Shown one piece after another: positions 9,767-45,398 of a DNA stretch of 46,562 nt. The DNA is from a virus, in the IMG/VR virus record IMGVR_UViG_3300047473_000023, positions 1 through 46,562 of that record; one strand, given 5' to 3'. The number at the start of each line of letters is the position of its first letter. Within the stretch, counting starts at the first letter, position 1. A program made the translations under genes and the position numbers. Below the pieces are notes generated by a model, which did not search any database, had not been told where the DNA came from, and saw nothing but the letters and a program-made list of their open reading frames with translations.

Positions 9767-9980
9767 GGACAACTTCGCTCGGATCGCGCGGTACTGGAAT
9801 GTTCACCTACAGAACCGCTACGGCGAACCAACGGCCATCGACGCCGTGGACGTGGCGTTGATGATGAACTTGATGAAGGTGGCGCGGCTCGACAACGAAC
9901 CACGGCACCTCGACAGCTGGATCGACATGGCCGGTTACTCCGCCTGTGGGGCTAACATTATCTGCAAGGACCCATCATGA
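9663..9980 (+). CDS. DUF6378-like protein (about 105 aa)
   Basis: The recognisable core starts around KEELLDRAKATVADRGLNYG and continues with FARIARYWNVHL, AIDAVDVALMMNLMKVARL and WIDMAGYSA, the pattern of the DUF6378 family of phage proteins. The start is uncertain: TTG 9663 with AGGAG close by is proposed, while ATG 9585 would give 26 unlikely extra residues lying over the previous gene. The stop overlaps the ATG of the ATPase (9977). Family role unknown; found near recombination genes. Confidence 0.65.
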   Translation: MFGSPSSPKTITKEELLDRAKATVADRGLNYGKPEDNFARIARYWNVHLQNRYGEPTAIDAVDVALMMNLMKVARLDNEPRHLDSWIDMAGYSACGANIICKDPS

Positions 9981-10864
9981 CCTCCCTCGCCCAACATCAC
10001 AGCAACACCCTCGTCAAACTCCTCTCTATCGGTGACTCCGGCGCAGGCAAAACCGGTTCGCTTGTGTCGCTTGTCAAAGCGGGGTTCAAGCTGCGCATCC
10101 TTGACCTCGACAACAAGCTCGACGTTCTTCGCCAGTATGTCCTACGCGATTGTCCTGAGCTAATCTCTAACGTAGACTTTCGTACAATTCGTGACAAGTA
10201 TAAAGCCACTGCTCAAGGTATGGTAATTGACGGCCAACCTAAAGCATTTATCGACGCGATCAGAATGTTTGATAAATGGAAATACATAGGTGACGATGGC
10301 GAAGAAACTGATCTAGGCAGCCCTGCCGAGTGGGGGGCTGATACTATCTTAGTTATCGACTCCCTCTCCCGGTTCTGTGACTCAGCTTATGATTGGGCCG
10401 TAGCAATGGCAGGAGCAAAAGCCGATGGCCGAGCTATCTACGGTAATGCGCAGGACGCTGTAGAGTCTACCCTCGCCGGGCTAACTTCTGCCAGCTTCAA
10501 TACAAACCTAATCGTCATTGCCCATATTTCCTATATGGAAATGCCTGATGGTACTCGTAAATGTCAACCTCAAGGTGTGGGCCAAAAGCTTTCCCCAAAG
10601 ATTCCTTCCTATTTCGGAAGTTATGTACTCTATGAGAACAAGAACGGCAAACGAACAATTCGAACTTCGTCAACACCGATGGTGGATTTGTTTAATCCCG
10701 CGCCGTTTATCCTTGAAGGCAACTATCCTCTGGAATCGGGGCTGGCCACAATCTTTGAAGCGCTTAAAGGTGGGCAATGTCAGGAACAATCTACGACGAA
10801 GACTATATTAAAGACAGAGTCTCCGTTTCGGAGGCCGGTTGTTGGGAGTGGCAACGTTCGGTAG
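9977..10864 (+). CDS. RecA-like AAA ATPase, Sak4 type
   Basis: 295 residues with Walker A GDSGAGKTGS (18-27) and Walker B TILVIDSLSRF (about 123-133), then VIAHISYME and a GQKLSPKIPSYF segment typical of the phage RecA-core ATPases related to Sak4. Such proteins promote single-strand annealing together with an SSB; the DUF669-like gene two places on may be that partner. The last 30 residues are read out of frame from the inserted HNH gene (overlap 10777-10864), so the natural C-terminus was probably altered by that insertion. Confidence 0.85.
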   Translation: MTSLAQHHSNTLVKLLSIGDSGAGKTGSLVSLVKAGFKLRILDLDNKLDVLRQYVLRDCPELISNVDFRTIRDKYKATAQGMVIDGQPKAFIDAIRMFDKWKYIGDDGEETDLGSPAEWGADTILVIDSLSRFCDSAYDWAVAMAGAKADGRAIYGNAQDAVESTLAGLTSASFNTNLIVIAHISYMEMPDGTRKCQPQGVGQKLSPKIPSYFGSYVLYENKNGKRTIRTSSTPMVDLFNPAPFILEGNYPLESGLATIFEALKGGQCQEQSTTKTILKTESPFRRPVVGSGNVR

Positions 10865-11247
10865 ACACTGGTGGGTACGGTCAAGTAAGAATTGAAGGGC
10901 GGCTTATTAAAGCACACCGGCTGGCATATGAAATCTTCAAGGGACCAATACCATTATTCATGGTAGCTTGTCACGTCTGTGATAATCGTAAATGTGTGAA
11001 CCCTGATCACATATTTATTGATACACAGCAAAACAATGTCAAGGATGCTATATCGAAAGGCCGTATAGATCCTGTGGCACGCGCGAGATTAGCAAATGCC
11101 TCTAAAATAATACCAAAAGAGGTGTATGCTTCTGTAGTTAACGATCTACAAAAAGGAGGTATGTCACAACAAACAATCGCAAACAAACACAATATCTCAC
11201 AGCGCACAGTGTGCAAAATCAACCAAGGAAAACATCATCATGGCTAA
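10777..11247 (+). CDS. HNH homing-type endonuclease with C-terminal HTH
   Basis: 156 residues. HNH_3-like core: AHRLAYEIFKGPIP, then ACHVCDNRKCVNPDHIFIDT, i.e. H-x2-C/C-x2-H zinc/His metal finger with the catalytic His at its start, then NNVKDAISKGR. The C-terminal part carries a helix-turn-helix (MSQQTIANKHNISQRTVCK). It overlaps the ATPase 3' end by 88 bases and the next gene by 8. The segment is AT-richer than its neighbours. Free-standing HNH genes of this type move by cutting homologous DNA lacking the insertion. Confidence 0.85.
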   Translation: MSGTIYDEDYIKDRVSVSEAGCWEWQRSVDTGGYGQVRIEGRLIKAHRLAYEIFKGPIPLFMVACHVCDNRKCVNPDHIFIDTQQNNVKDAISKGRIDPVARARLANASKIIPKEVYASVVNDLQKGGMSQQTIANKHNISQRTVCKINQGKHHHG

Positions 11248-11695
11248 GCCCAACTTTGCGTCAATTTTGGATGCCCCTGCTTCGGATATCTCCCGCCCCA
11301 AACCTTTGCCTTGCGGTACATACTTGGCCATTGTCGAAGGCCTGCCCCGCTATGACAAAAGCACAAAGAAAGGCACGGACTTTGTGGAGTTCTCTCTCCG
11401 CATCGCCGCCGCCGCTGATGACGTGGACGAGGAGGAGCTTAACGAGGTCGGCATAACTCTCAAGGACGGCACTCCGCGGTCCATGAAGGCCACCTACTAC
11501 CTCACCGAGGATGCGGCGTGGCGCTTGAAGAAGTTCCTCGAAGACCTCGGCTTCGACTTCACCACCGACCTGACTCTGCGGGAGGCTTGCGAAAGCTCTG
11601 CCAACCGCGAAGTCTACATCACCATCGGGCACGAGCCGTCGCAGGATGGTCAGGCGATCTTCGCCCGGATCACCGGTACCGCGAAGGCTGAGTAA
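11240..11695 (+). CDS. DUF669-like putative ssDNA-binding protein
   Basis: 151 residues, start behind AAGGA at 11240. Pattern: N-terminal short linker, then GTYLAIVEGLPRYDKSTKKG, FVEFSLRI, an acidic stretch (DDVDEEELNE), and the closing ATYYLTEDAAWRLKKFLEDLG and REVYITIGHEP. This matches the DUF669/phage SSB-like family that accompanies Sak4 ATPases. Expected role: binding ssDNA during replication or annealing (inference). A good terminator follows directly. Confidence 0.7.
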   Translation: MAKPNFASILDAPASDISRPKPLPCGTYLAIVEGLPRYDKSTKKGTDFVEFSLRIAAAADDVDEEELNEVGITLKDGTPRSMKATYYLTEDAAWRLKKFLEDLGFDFTTDLTLREACESSANREVYITIGHEPSQDGQAIFARITGTAKAE

Positions 11696-11760: not shown

Positions 11761-12861
11761 ATGAAGCCAATAATTTTGTTAGGCGAGTCGCCATCCACCG
11801 CCGAAGATCGCCTCGGTATCTCCTTCTGCTCCTCCGGCGGACTCGAACTCCTTAAGATGCTTTCCGAAGCAGAGGTCATCACACTAACCGCCGCGGACCA
11901 AGACTACATCCGCCGGTACTGGAACGCCTCTGACCCGCTCATGCTCGACATGGTCTGGCAAATGCACCCGGAAGTCCACCGACTCAACGTCTTCCCGCCC
12001 CTGCCCGGCGCTAACATCGCCAACATCCTCGGGCCCAAACCAACTGCTATCCCCGGCTACCCTGTCTTAGAGAAAGGAGCCAATGGCTATGTCCAACTCC
12101 CCTACGCCCACGCCCTCCGAGACCTCGAAAGGGCTCTCAATTATCTCGATTGTAATATCGTTGTTGCTTTGGGCAATACTCCTCTTTGGGCTCTCTGTGG
12201 CACAACAGGTGTATCAAAGCTTCGTGGGACAACCCGACTGTCAACCCACACAGTCGCCGACTTTAAAGTTCTCGCCACCTACCACCCCACGACAGTACAA
12301 CGGCAGATTGAACTCCGGGCGGTCACAGTATTCGATCTGATGAAGGCAGTCCGAGAGAACGAGTCCCCTAAGCTCATGCTCCCGGAACGTGAAATCTGGA
12401 TCGAACCAACCATCAAAGACATCGAGGTTTTCTATGAACAACGCATCCGAGGATCTGATCTACTTAGCGTGGACATTGAAACATCAGGCAACCAGATCAC
12501 TTGCATTGGCTTCGCACCCGATGCAAGAAGTGCGCTCGTCGTTCCTTTCTTTGACGCCCGAAAAAAGAACAGGTCTTATTGGGGCTCTACTCACGATGAG
12601 TCAGTCGTATGGAGCCTTGTCCGAAATGTTCTCACTGATCGAAGCATCCCAAAACTCTTCCAAAACGGCCTGTACGATATTGCCTTTCTCTGGCGCTCGG
12701 TCCGCATCCCGGTCTACGGAGCCGCCCACGACACCATGCTCCTCCATCACGCCCTTCAACCCGAAAGCTTGAAGTCGTTGGATTTTCTGGGTTCGGTGTA
12801 CACTAACGAGTCCGCGTGGAAGCGGGATCATCGGATACAGACAAACAAAAGAGGAGCTTGA
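11761..12861 (+). CDS. DNA polymerase A, N-terminal part: UDG-like domain plus exonuclease half
   Basis: 366 residues from ATG 11761 (an in-frame TTG is at 11755). Residues 1 to about 200 resemble family 4/5-type uracil-DNA glycosylases: LLGESPSTAEDRLG, NVFPP, VVALGNTPLWALCG, LRGT and ATYHPT in order; the four Cys of the Fe-S type are not evident. From about 230 a DEDD-type 3'-5' exonuclease begins: D238/E240 (SVDIETSG) and D306 (NGLYDIAF). The chain stops soon after LGSVYTNESAW, before the third exonuclease motif and the polymerase, which resume at 13171. The last residues (RIQTNKRGA) probably derive from the insertion. Confidence 0.85.
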   Translation: MKPIILLGESPSTAEDRLGISFCSSGGLELLKMLSEAEVITLTAADQDYIRRYWNASDPLMLDMVWQMHPEVHRLNVFPPLPGANIANILGPKPTAIPGYPVLEKGANGYVQLPYAHALRDLERALNYLDCNIVVALGNTPLWALCGTTGVSKLRGTTRLSTHTVADFKVLATYHPTTVQRQIELRAVTVFDLMKAVRENESPKLMLPEREIWIEPTIKDIEVFYEQRIRGSDLLSVDIETSGNQITCIGFAPDARSALVVPFFDARKKNRSYWGSTHDESVVWSLVRNVLTDRSIPKLFQNGLYDIAFLWRSVRIPVYGAAHDTMLLHHALQPESLKSLDFLGSVYTNESAWKRDHRIQTNKRGA

Positions 12862-12862
12862 T

Positions 12863-13180
12863 ATGTCAAAGATTCAAGACATCTTCCGGGTACTTATTGG
12901 AACTTTGAGCTGGGAGCAAGTTCAGAACTATGACAAATTGACAAAACTTTACGCCGTAGAGGTCACAAAACTCCGTGGTAGGATAACACAGTTAGGCCTT
13001 GTCATAGCCAAATCAGAGGGTTTAAAACAAGATGCCTCGGACACACTTGGTTATGAAGTAATGCGAGATCTTAAAAACGATGTACTAACTGAAATACCTA
13101 TGCGCCATTGTCATTGGTGCGATAAAACTACAGGTTATATAAACAACATTTGTATTGTCTGTGGTGTGAAATGCGAATAA
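12863..13180 (+). CDS. Zinc-ribbon ORF interrupting the polymerase gene (105 aa)
   Basis: ATG 12863 follows AGAGGAGCTTGAT. Helical N-terminus (LTKLYAVEVTKLRGRITQLG), then a C-terminal ribbon: CHWC near residue 83 and CIVC near residue 97, plus a final Cys. It is AT-richer than the flanking polymerase halves and has no HNH, GIY-YIG or LAGLIDADG motif. It fills the gap between exonuclease motifs II and III. It may be an intron-borne ORF, a degenerate mobile gene, or an independent protein linking the two halves. Function unknown. Confidence 0.7.
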   Translation: MSKIQDIFRVLIGTLSWEQVQNYDKLTKLYAVEVTKLRGRITQLGLVIAKSEGLKQDASDTLGYEVMRDLKNDVLTEIPMRHCHWCDKTTGYINNICIVCGVKCE

Positions 13181-14682
13181 TCCACTCCCACCTCCGTACT
13201 GACGCCGACCTCAAAGGCCAAGTCGGTGACTGGATTTACAACGGTCTAGACTGCACGGTAACCCGCGAGGTTTTCGATGTCATCCATCCCCAACTTGATG
13301 AGTGCACAGCCAGGACGTATGCGTTTAGCCAAGCTCTTCAAGGCCCGGTTCTCGAAATGCGTTGTCGTGGAGTACTCGTTGATCAAGCCCGGCGCGCTCA
13401 AGTCATCGACGAATTTCACGACCACCTCGATCAACTCGAAAGACAACTCGATCGCATCGTCCTAGACGGTTGCGGGTTGGAAACTTTCAAATGGTCCTCG
13501 CCCAAAGACCTACAGAGGCTTTTCTATGGCGTACTTAAAATCCCTCCGATCCGCAGCAAAGGCCATGTTTCAACAGACGCTGCGGCGCTTGAGAAACTCC
13601 AAGCCTACAACATCGCCCGCCCCATCGTTTCGCATATACTTGCAATGCGTGAGTTATCGAAACGAATATCTGTACTGCGAACTCCCCTTGACTCTGATGG
13701 CAGAATGCGATCAAGTTACAATATTGCAGGGACCAACACTGGAAGGTTTAGTTCTTCTTTTTCCGAATTCGGAACAGGTGGAAACCTTCAAAATGTCGAA
13801 GAAAGCTTACGATCAATTTTCATTCCCGACGAGGGGATGAAATTCGCAAAGTGTGACGCTAAATCAGGAGAAAGCTATGTCGTCGGAGCAATCGAATATA
13901 ATCTTTTCGGGGATAGTACCTACCTCGATGCTGTCGAATCTGGTGACGTTCATACGGCAGTTGCCCGATTATGTTGGGACCTGGGATGGACGGGCAATCT
14001 CAAACATGATAAGGAACTCGCAGAACAACCGTTCTTCCGCCATTACTCTTACCGTTTCATGTGCAAAAAGCTCGGCCACGGTTCCAACTACGGTGGACTT
14101 CCTCCAACCCTCGCCCAACAATCCCACCTCCCCCTCGGAGTCGTCCAACAATTCCAGCCCAAATACTTCGTCGCCTTCCCTGCCCACCGTCGTTGGCAAG
14201 AGCACGTGGCAAAAACCCTACTTGAACGCGGTAATCTCACAACTCTCACAGGCCGTCGGCGATGGTTCCACGGACGACGTAACGATCCCGCCACAATCCG
14301 CGAAGCTATTGCTTATGATCCGCAAGGAAGTCTCGCAGATATTGTGAATAAGGCGATGCTGAATATCTGGCGCACAAATAAAGTTCAAATTGTGGGGCAT
14401 GTGCATGATGCTTTAATTTTCCAATATCCAGAAGAACAAGAGGATGAAATTATCCCATGGATTATGGAACGATTAATTGTTCCAATCCAATTAGCTAATG
14501 GAAAAGAACTTCGCATACCATATGATGCAGAAGTCGGCTGGAATTGGGGACATTGCTCAGAGACTAACACTGACGGGATGAAGGAGTATAAAGGTCATGA
14601 CGATAGAAAATGCACACCACGACTTGGAATACTCGATCGGTCGTTTGGGGCAGGAGGAACTAAAAAGATTAGTAGAGTATGA
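13171..14682 (+). CDS. DNA polymerase A, C-terminal part
   Basis: 504 residues from ATG 13171, which overlaps the previous stop (13180); a TTG at 13150 is less likely. It begins with the missing exonuclease III motif (YNGLD, Y23 and D27), followed by the family A core: NTGRFSS, motif A CDAKSGE (D229), motif B R295-x3-K299-x7-Y307-G, and motif C VHDAL (H412-D413, with A in place of the usual E). The frame is the same as that of the N-terminal part. The last 25 or so residues are read over the start of the HNH gene and are probably not original. Reading frame otherwise intact. Confidence 0.9.
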   Translation: MRIIHSHLRTDADLKGQVGDWIYNGLDCTVTREVFDVIHPQLDECTARTYAFSQALQGPVLEMRCRGVLVDQARRAQVIDEFHDHLDQLERQLDRIVLDGCGLETFKWSSPKDLQRLFYGVLKIPPIRSKGHVSTDAAALEKLQAYNIARPIVSHILAMRELSKRISVLRTPLDSDGRMRSSYNIAGTNTGRFSSSFSEFGTGGNLQNVEESLRSIFIPDEGMKFAKCDAKSGESYVVGAIEYNLFGDSTYLDAVESGDVHTAVARLCWDLGWTGNLKHDKELAEQPFFRHYSYRFMCKKLGHGSNYGGLPPTLAQQSHLPLGVVQQFQPKYFVAFPAHRRWQEHVAKTLLERGNLTTLTGRRRWFHGRRNDPATIREAIAYDPQGSLADIVNKAMLNIWRTNKVQIVGHVHDALIFQYPEEQEDEIIPWIMERLIVPIQLANGKELRIPYDAEVGWNWGHCSETNTDGMKEYKGHDDRKCTPRLGILDRSFGAGGTKKISRV

Positions 14683-15097
14683 TCCTGATACAGGATTGTT
14701 TCTAAGTCTAAGGCGATATAAAATTATAGGCACTGAAAATGAACATGGATATACTCGAATAAAACTAAATGGAATTAGTTATTATGCGCATAAACTAGCT
14801 TGGTTCTATATCTATGGAATCTGGGTACAGGTAGATCACATAAATCGAATTTACAGTGATAACCGTTTAGTAAATCTACGTCCAATAACTGCTAAACAAA
14901 ATGCAGCAAATCAAGGTGTTAGAATTACTAATATGCTAGGAGTAAAAGGTGTGCAGAAAAGGGGTAATAAATATAGAGCTTATATCACTAATGATTATAA
15001 AACCTATTATCTTGGCACATATGACACATTAGAAGAAGCTAAAGTTGCCTACCAAACTAAAGCTAAAGAGCTTTTTGGGGAATACTTCGGTGAATAA
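14597..15097 (+). CDS. HNH endonuclease with AP2-like C-terminus
   Basis: 166 residues. Core: LVEYDPDTGLF, YAHKLAWFYIYG, VDHINRIYSDNRLVNLRPITAKQN, i.e. the HNH pattern of numerous phage homing nucleases, then the AP2-type DNA-binding tail (GVKGVQKRGNKYRAYI, YYLGTYDTLEEAKVAY). The gene is very AT-rich relative to its neighbours. It overlaps the polymerase 3' end by 86 bases and the next gene by 8. It is a good candidate for the nuclease acting on the polymerase locus. Confidence 0.85.
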   Translation: MTIENAHHDLEYSIGRLGQEELKRLVEYDPDTGLFLSLRRYKIIGTENEHGYTRIKLNGISYYAHKLAWFYIYGIWVQVDHINRIYSDNRLVNLRPITAKQNAANQGVRITNMLGVKGVQKRGNKYRAYITNDYKTYYLGTYDTLEEAKVAYQTKAKELFGEYFGE

Positions 15098-36412: not shown

Positions 36413-36892
36413 TTAGCAGTTAACAGGAGTAGAGAACTCCCCGTGGTGTTTTGCATGTGCAGCTTCAAAAGCTTCGTGCGCTTTCTCTGCTGTATTGTAG
36501 TTGCCAAGGAAGATAACTTTCCCGTGTACCTGTATTTTCGAGTACCACACATCCATGCGTACATGGTAGTATGCTCCTCGTAAGGGGTGGGATTCGCTAC
36601 GATTGGCGTTGTTCTGAGTTCGGTCACAGGGGCGGAGGTTGGTGATCCGATTATCGGCCCCGTTTCCGTTGATGTGATCGAGCTCAGTAGGCACATATCC
36701 ATGAACATACAGCCAAGCAGCTTGATGCTCATAGATTCTTTTATAGTCTATAGTGAGCTTACGGTAACCGTGCCCGGACGAAGCGCCAGCACGAGAACCT
36801 TTACCAGCTGCACCACGACTAAAACGGTTTATGAACCAACCTGTTTCAGGGTCGTATTCGAAAAGTTCCTTAAGCCGTTCTTGCGTGATCAT
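36413..36892 (-). CDS. HNH endonuclease with AP2-like tail between scaffold and capsid
   Basis: 159 residues. LFEYDPETGWFINR, YEHQAAWLYVHGYVP, LDHINGNGADNRITNLRPCDRTQN, then an AP2-like tail (WYSKIQVHGKVIFLGNYNTAEKAHEAF). Same domain order as the proteins at 14597 and 44898. The start overlaps the scaffold stop by 4 bases, so it is co-translated with late genes. Homing-type mobile gene. Confidence 0.85.
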   Translation of the reverse strand: MITQERLKELFEYDPETGWFINRFSRGAAGKGSRAGASSGHGYRKLTIDYKRIYEHQAAWLYVHGYVPTELDHINGNGADNRITNLRPCDRTQNNANRSESHPLRGAYYHVRMDVWYSKIQVHGKVIFLGNYNTAEKAHEAFEAAHAKHHGEFSTPVNC

Positions 36893-44897: not shown

Positions 44898-45398
44898 ATG
44901 CCGATGCCTATAGCCCCTGGACATACGCCTGAGCAGATCGCAGAGTCGTTTGGTTATAACCCAGAGACAGGAGCAGTCTGGAGAACCTTTGGTCGCGCCG
45001 CTGGTAGAGTAATCATGTACAACGTGGTTATGCTGGAAGGTTACTCATACCAAGTTTGCCGAATTGCTTGGTGCATACATTATGGTGAATGGCCGCCGTT
45101 GGATCGCTACATTGACCACATTAATGGAAAGCATTGGGATGACCGCCCCGAGAACATGAGATTAGCTACGCCGAGAGAAAATATATATAACACTGTGCGC
45201 AATGGCAAACATTCTCGTGGAGTTAGATTTGACTCAAGAAACTCCAGCAACCCCTGGATCGCGCGCATTCGCAACCACGGCGTGGAACGCCACCTTGGTA
45301 ACTTTGCAACCCACGCCGAAGCCGCCCGCGCCTATGCCGAAGCCGCAATCGAACTCCACGGCGAATTCGCACTGGACTATAGCAATATCATAAAGTGA
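44898..45398 (+). CDS. HNH endonuclease with AP2-like tail
   Basis: 166 residues; ATG 44898 behind GGAGAAGTGTC. Core: SFGYNPETGAVWR, VCRIAWCIHYGEWP, IDHINGKHWDDRPENMRLATPREN, followed by an AP2-like tail (RGVRFDSRNSSNPWIARI, RHLGNFATHAEAARAYAEA). Unlike the other three HNH genes it has its own perfect promoter and lies outside an operon, with hairpins after it. Confidence 0.85.
   Translation: MPMPIAPGHTPEQIAESFGYNPETGAVWRTFGRAAGRVIMYNVVMLEGYSYQVCRIAWCIHYGEWPPLDRYIDHINGKHWDDRPENMRLATPRENIYNTVRNGKHSRGVRFDSRNSSNPWIARIRNHGVERHLGNFATHAEAARAYAEAAIELHGEFALDYSNIIK

Follow-up and report, generated by a model that had tools for sequence, protein, structure and literature searches.

A family A DNA polymerase encoded in two genes, with the break between its exonuclease motifs, is fixed across a clade of viruses

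Introduction

Several essential phage enzymes are known to be encoded in two genes. In the T4-like Aeromonas phages 25 and 44RR the family B polymerase is split into gp43A and gp43B, the chains of which co-purify and have polymerase activity (PMC2988022). NrdA is split by mobE in Aeromonas phage Aeh1 and T4 gene 60 by mobA; the split chains of such essential enzymes reassemble, and activity has been shown for NrdA (PMC2988022). A family A polymerase in the form of two open reading frames (ORFs), with a small ORF of no known function between them, was described for the OM43 phages MEP401 and MEP402 and occurs in most of their group, and its authors leave an intron possible (PMC10580990). In this study, a divided family A polymerase was investigated in the metagenomic virus record IMGVR_UViG_3300047473_000023, the whole 46,562 nucleotides (46.6 kb) of which are referred to as the window. 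Here the two ORFs, called N and C, are separated between the exonuclease motifs. A search of the open-access literature, with subscription papers and preprints outside its coverage, gave no report of a family A polymerase cut between exonuclease motifs. We consider it very likely that N and C are separately translated subunits of one polymerase with a uracil-DNA glycosylase-like domain, an exonuclease and a polymerase domain (UDG-Exo-Pol), and that its proofreading site is composite; the split was probably made by a homing endonuclease.

Results

The exonuclease motifs are distributed over two ORFs

The N ORF ends after exonuclease motifs I (D238/E240) and II (D306), and motif III (Y23-NGL-D27) lies together with the whole polymerase on the C ORF, as the original prediction had read from the nucleotide sequence. 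Above the Pfam cut-offs N matches PF03167 (UDG) and the first part of PF01612 (DNA_pol_A_exo1), which bears out the glycosylase-like domain proposed earlier, and C contains a full PF00476 (DNA_pol_A) domain (6e-39). The prediction was also right that both ORFs share a frame modulo 3 with several in-frame stops between them; seven were counted over the 309 bases between the N stop and the C start. It missed a coding sequence in this stretch, a 105-residue ORF (hereafter cargo) that begins one base past the N stop and whose last 10 bases overlap the start of C.

The split recurs at the same position

A scan of IMG/VR with C retrieved 80 close relatives, in which N and C are separate ORFs with the same breakpoint wherever the upstream sequence suffices. 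Wider scans brought the number of distinct loci to 260, with 162 split, 90 fused and 8 having a contig end just upstream of C; 122 split and 65 fused loci were left once near-copies had been taken out. In the main clade, to which the window belongs, all 116 non-redundant members with both genes readable have the same break and none is fused. In the window, as in each of the 116 clade members, stop codons lie between the two ORFs, so that exonuclease and polymerase are not encoded as one polypeptide in any of them, and no C chain of the clade carries motifs I and II. The original prediction was to fall if resequencing showed an uninterrupted frame or if C held a complete exonuclease, and neither was encountered. 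Wherever enough sequence precedes C, N is located a short way upstream of it. Since 162 distinct loci share this break, the two-gene polymerase is a fixed, clade-wide arrangement and neither chance nor an assembly error, and it is not the oddity of a single genome that had been supposed.

A cultured virus, Caulobacter phage Kuura, shares this arrangement. Its gene 029, annotated as a hypothetical protein, corresponds to N, genes 028 and 027 are cargo, and gene 026, annotated as DNA polymerase, corresponds to C; the Kuura paper mentions a DNA polymerase only (PMC9959647). A search for hosts in genome contigs gave no match for N, and C matched only short contigs from metagenome bins and distant polymerases.

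Catalytic residues are invariant and the models tile one fold

All four exonuclease carboxylates and the motif III tyrosine are present, distributed over the two chains. Of the main-clade N chains 109/109 have D238, E240 and D306, and of the C chains 119/119 have Y23 and D27; these positions are thus invariant, as in the fused relatives. The polymerase motif A aspartate D229, H412/D413 of motif C and the arginine R192 of TGR are likewise found in all 119 C chains. Outside the invariant motif positions these chains differ by 40-65%. Against the nearest relative, locus L002, the ratio of nonsynonymous to synonymous substitution (dN/dS) was 0.15 for N, 0.21 for its exonuclease part, 0.12 for C and 0.17 for the head of C, rough values with synonymous sites near saturation that indicate purifying selection on both ORFs.

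Single-chain AlphaFold2 models reached a mean pLDDT of 91.7 for N and 91.0 for C, with the confidence of N dropping across its last 25 residues. Residues 207-366 of the N model align to Klenow 324-494 (Z 12.7) and residues 39-471 of the C model to Klenow 514-928 (Z 32); an early helix of C, residues 17-41, bears motif III. Because the models tile Klenow in this manner, N and C are predicted to make up a single Klenow-type enzyme in which the motif III helix, located on C, comes between the two aligned parts. The breakpoint falls between exonuclease motif II and the motif III helix (Klenow ~480-495).

For the glycosylase-like domain, family-4 UDGs/UdgX were the best PDB profile matches, and the UDG fold was matched with Z 16 to 1ui0, 1vk2 and UdgX; the best structural match of N was PDB 9qhs, the phiLo polymerase. 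The UDG motifs GE...E and HP are present (E9 in 98/109, H175 in 107/109 and P176 in 109/109 N chains). The domain (11761-12375) starts directly at the GE motif, and there is no invariant or near-invariant cysteine in the clade alignment. For these two reasons N seems to lack the iron-sulphur cluster of family-4 UDGs. Judged from these sequence features, the domain may serve to bind or sense uracil instead of excising it.

N and C have separate translation signals

N and C abut or overlap in 30/116 main-clade members, with an overlap of 4 nucleotides in 16, of 1 nucleotide in 11, and a position within 3 nucleotides of each other in 3. The gap ranges from -4 to 1702 nucleotides and holds unrelated genes. 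The frame of C differs from that of N in 91/116 (25, 40 and 51 members in the three phases), and C has a start of its own, beginning with MRI or MKI. The N tail is conserved, most commonly as TIKRD with the usual spelling ACN-ATN-AAG-AGG-GAY. Its arginine codon is AGG or AGA in 68/85 cases, compared with 21% elsewhere in N, and a Shine-Dalgarno (SD)-like 4-mer occurs within the last 21 nucleotides of N in 88/116, compared with 27% of control windows. This codon bias and the excess of SD-like 4-mers suggest that the N tail serves, at least in part, as the ribosome-binding site of the following gene, be it cargo or C.

The geometry of the junction bears on whether the two ORFs are ever joined. 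The shared frame in the window would suit both a self-splicing intron in one polymerase gene, with the RNA joined before translation, and a single chain made by stop-codon read-through, programmed frameshift or ribosome bypass; phage polymerase genes are known to carry introns, and bypass is known in T4 gene 60. Splicing had been offered in the original prediction as the alternative to two polypeptides, with an Rfam search as a check, but that search detected no intron at the gathering threshold in the window or in 14 relatives, nor at an E value of 5 on positions 12700-13320. There is no room for an intron in the 30 abutting or overlapping pairs, the gap ORFs reach from the stop of N to the start of C, and the out-of-frame majority, the start of C and the SD-like sequence in the N tail all argue against RNA joining, which we regard as very unlikely. 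The spread over three phases, the free variation of the gap in length and content with unrelated genes inside, and the start of C make read-through, frameshift or bypass somewhat less likely still. Protein trans-splicing by a split intein would also give one chain, and fractured genes with split inteins and an endonuclease between them are cited in PMC10448857. However, a median of only 13 residues follows the last conserved WK in N and 22 precede the motif III tyrosine in C, compared with a whole spacer of 17 residues in fused relatives. This leaves no room for intein halves, and with the C start also lacking a Cys/Ser/Thr junction signature, trans-splicing can be given almost no weight.

An error of sequencing or assembly, or decay of the polymerase gene, might be suspected in a metagenomic record, but this is already refuted by the recurrence of the break in 162 loci and a cultured phage, and with purifying selection on both ORFs and all catalytic residues intact its probability is close to nil. 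The two chains could instead act apart, C as a polymerase without proofreading and N as a repair glycosylase whose half of an exonuclease is dead. Each chain does carry another complete domain, and family A polymerases without exonuclease exist. Yet motif III on C, and motifs I and II on N, would be useless alone and are nevertheless invariant in 119 and 109 chains, and N stands just upstream of every C for which this can be seen; separate action thus appears improbable, although less so than any form of joining. Two separately translated chains are favoured because of the abutting or overlapping pairs, the out-of-frame majority, the variable gap, the start of C and the lack of an intron family. 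Of the two options in the original prediction, these comparisons support two polypeptides and speak against splicing.

The gap between N and C is an insertion hot spot

The genes inserted in the gap include HNH, endonuclease VII and LAGLIDADG genes as well as other small genes. When 104 gap ORFs were scanned with Pfam, HNH_3 was matched 10 times, DUF7768 8, NrdR-like Zn ribbons 4, DUF7220 4, Endonuclease_7 3 and LAGLIDADG_3 2 times, some of the matches lying below the curated cut-off. Endonuclease families account for ~15 scanned gap ORFs (E 0.01, again with some below the cut-off), and none is in the gap of the window. Gap cargo of relatives (L087:3157-3675 and others) also includes RNase H-like, MazG-like, NrdR-like Zn ribbon, helix-turn-helix, DUF7768 and DUF7220 genes, and the polymerase junction seems to be a place where small accessory genes gather. 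Turnover of cargo is fast: locus L058 has no gap, whereas L079, with a C that is 94% identical, has 571 nucleotides with an HNH-like gene, and L002 holds a different ORF from that of the window. The guanine-cytosine (GC) content of cargo is on average 4.6 points below that of the flanking polymerase and is lower in 61/79. In the window it is 40%, compared with 54% in N. The window cargo has a CxxC...CxxC ribbon at its end and gave no homologue in Pfam, PHROGs (best 0.34), phages or IMG/VR, making it an orphan.

Fused relatives and the origin of the split

Uninterrupted UDG-Exo-Pol genes with the same domain order are found in MW202489, Microcystis phage Mel-JY34 and many IMG/VR contigs. In a tree built on the polymerase domain, with the junction excluded, the window clade forms one side of a branch with SH-aLRT 99 and is wholly split. 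The sister clade is mostly fused and includes six further split members, a few of them known to be broken at this same position, needing ~5 changes. Change counts alone do not root the event; the fused state was taken as ancestral because the outgroup polymerases are fused.

Nested among fused relatives, locus L102 carries an HNH gene (L102:5043-5477; PHROGs) that divides its polymerase at the same position, and the locus resembles what a young endonuclease-made split would be expected to look like. Loci L197, L200 and L207 are split without an insert and have an SD-like sequence at the N end. These four loci share the junction peptides WKPDKxxWKxGG* and HETEEDLW, which are absent from their fused neighbours. 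Despite these peptides a single origin of the four splits was rejected, as the polymerase tree does not accept them as one clade (p-AU 2e-10, for a group picked after the tree had been viewed). The pattern looks like a split junction passed on by recombination or by homing with co-conversion, and may also reflect repeated splitting. In a further locus, L211, the apparent split may be due to a frameshift error.

Features of the window

The coordinates of the locus are collected in Table 1. The HNH/AP2 endonuclease-like gene overlaps the 3' end of C and is a neighbour, not part of the split gene.

Table 1. Features of the divided polymerase locus in the window
Feature	Position	Strand	Length	Remarks
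Predicted N subunit gene	11761..12861	+	366 aa	ATG 11761, stop 12859-12861; UDG-like domain ~1-205, then first part of DEDDy exonuclease ~207-366
3' end of N	12835..12861	+		tail TNKRGA, coding and putative SD-like site (AAAGAGGAGC) for next gene
Cargo ORF between N and C	12863..13180	+	105 aa	SD-like sequence in front
Predicted C subunit gene	13171..14682	+	503 aa	ATG 13171, stop 14680-14682; first helix with exonuclease motif III, then complete family A polymerase
HNH/AP2 endonuclease-like gene	14597..15097	+		HNH_3 3.9e-9, AP2 5.2e-6; GC 35%

Another HNH-type endonuclease-like gene (10777-11247, +; HNH_3 match, GC 42%) overlaps the 3' end of a Sak4-like annealing gene (9977-10864). Between it and the polymerase, the ORF at 11240-11695 has a weak match to a single-strand DNA binding protein (phrog_378, E 0.0025). 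Two more genes, at 36413-36892 (-) and 44898-45398 (+), were judged HNH-type endonuclease-like by eye only.

Discussion

In the proposed two-subunit enzyme, N would supply the UDG-like domain and the carboxylates D238, E240 and D306, and the first helix of C would supply the motif III tyrosine Y23 and the fourth carboxylate D27, followed by the whole polymerase. The C helix is envisaged to dock into the exonuclease fold of N, which would complete the proofreading site and hold the chains together. As to its origin, a free-standing homing endonuclease would have entered a once-uninterrupted gene and split the polymerase, with later loss or replacement of the endonuclease and re-use of the gap for other insertions. 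Insertion of a homing endonuclease is probably the cause of the old clade-wide split.

Some points weigh against this interpretation. The structural models are of single chains, and the physical assembly of N and C and their proofreading activity are what we infer. Mutual information (MI-APC) between N and C showed no covariation enriched at the expected interface. In addition, 86/116 main-clade members hold something in the gap, and because the contents are mostly not endonucleases the endonuclease origin of the old split is likewise something we infer.

If N and C do form one enzyme, the locus would be a natural and long-kept case in which the nuclease active site of a replicative polymerase is divided between two gene products. 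The fused and split relatives provide a ready set with which fragment complementation of a proofreading site is directly testable. They mark a position of PolA that nature has cut more than once, and a coding junction that serves as a docking place for mobile endonucleases. The arrangement also explains phage annotations such as that of Kuura, where a polymerase without most of its exonuclease stands beside a hypothetical protein. Since the exonuclease site would form only when N binds C, the split might even be put to use, with proofreading switched via the subunit ratio through translational coupling and the gap genes tuning that ratio. We consider such a use unlikely; if true, a polymerase with naturally switchable proofreading would represent a new principle of regulation.

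The fused UDG-Exo-Pol proteins (MW202489, Mel-JY34 and the IMG/VR relatives) and the phiLo polymerase share the domain order and homology along the length with N and C. All of these are one chain, with a spacer of ~17 residues where the split chains have their own termini. The OM43 polymerases are alike in gene arrangement, being of family A, with two ORFs, a small gap ORF and recurrence within the group, but there the break lies inside the polymerase domain and the exonuclease is whole on the first chain (PMC10580990). NrdA of Aeh1 and T4 gene 60 exemplify what is proposed here, an enzyme split by a free-standing homing endonuclease with reassembling chains; they are other enzymes, and the endonuclease is their single known insert, while most members here lack the insert or have another in its place. 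As with gp43A/gp43B, a replicative phage polymerase is encoded in two genes. The gp43 split is associated with either a free-standing endonuclease or an insert that is not translated, whereas the present one is fixed in a large clade, with many unrelated genes in the gap, and affects a family A enzyme with a UDG domain and a break between exonuclease motifs. Compared with the split T4-like enzymes, the novelty would thus lie in a family A enzyme that is cut through its proofreading site and fixed across a clade, and the mode of working is probably alike.
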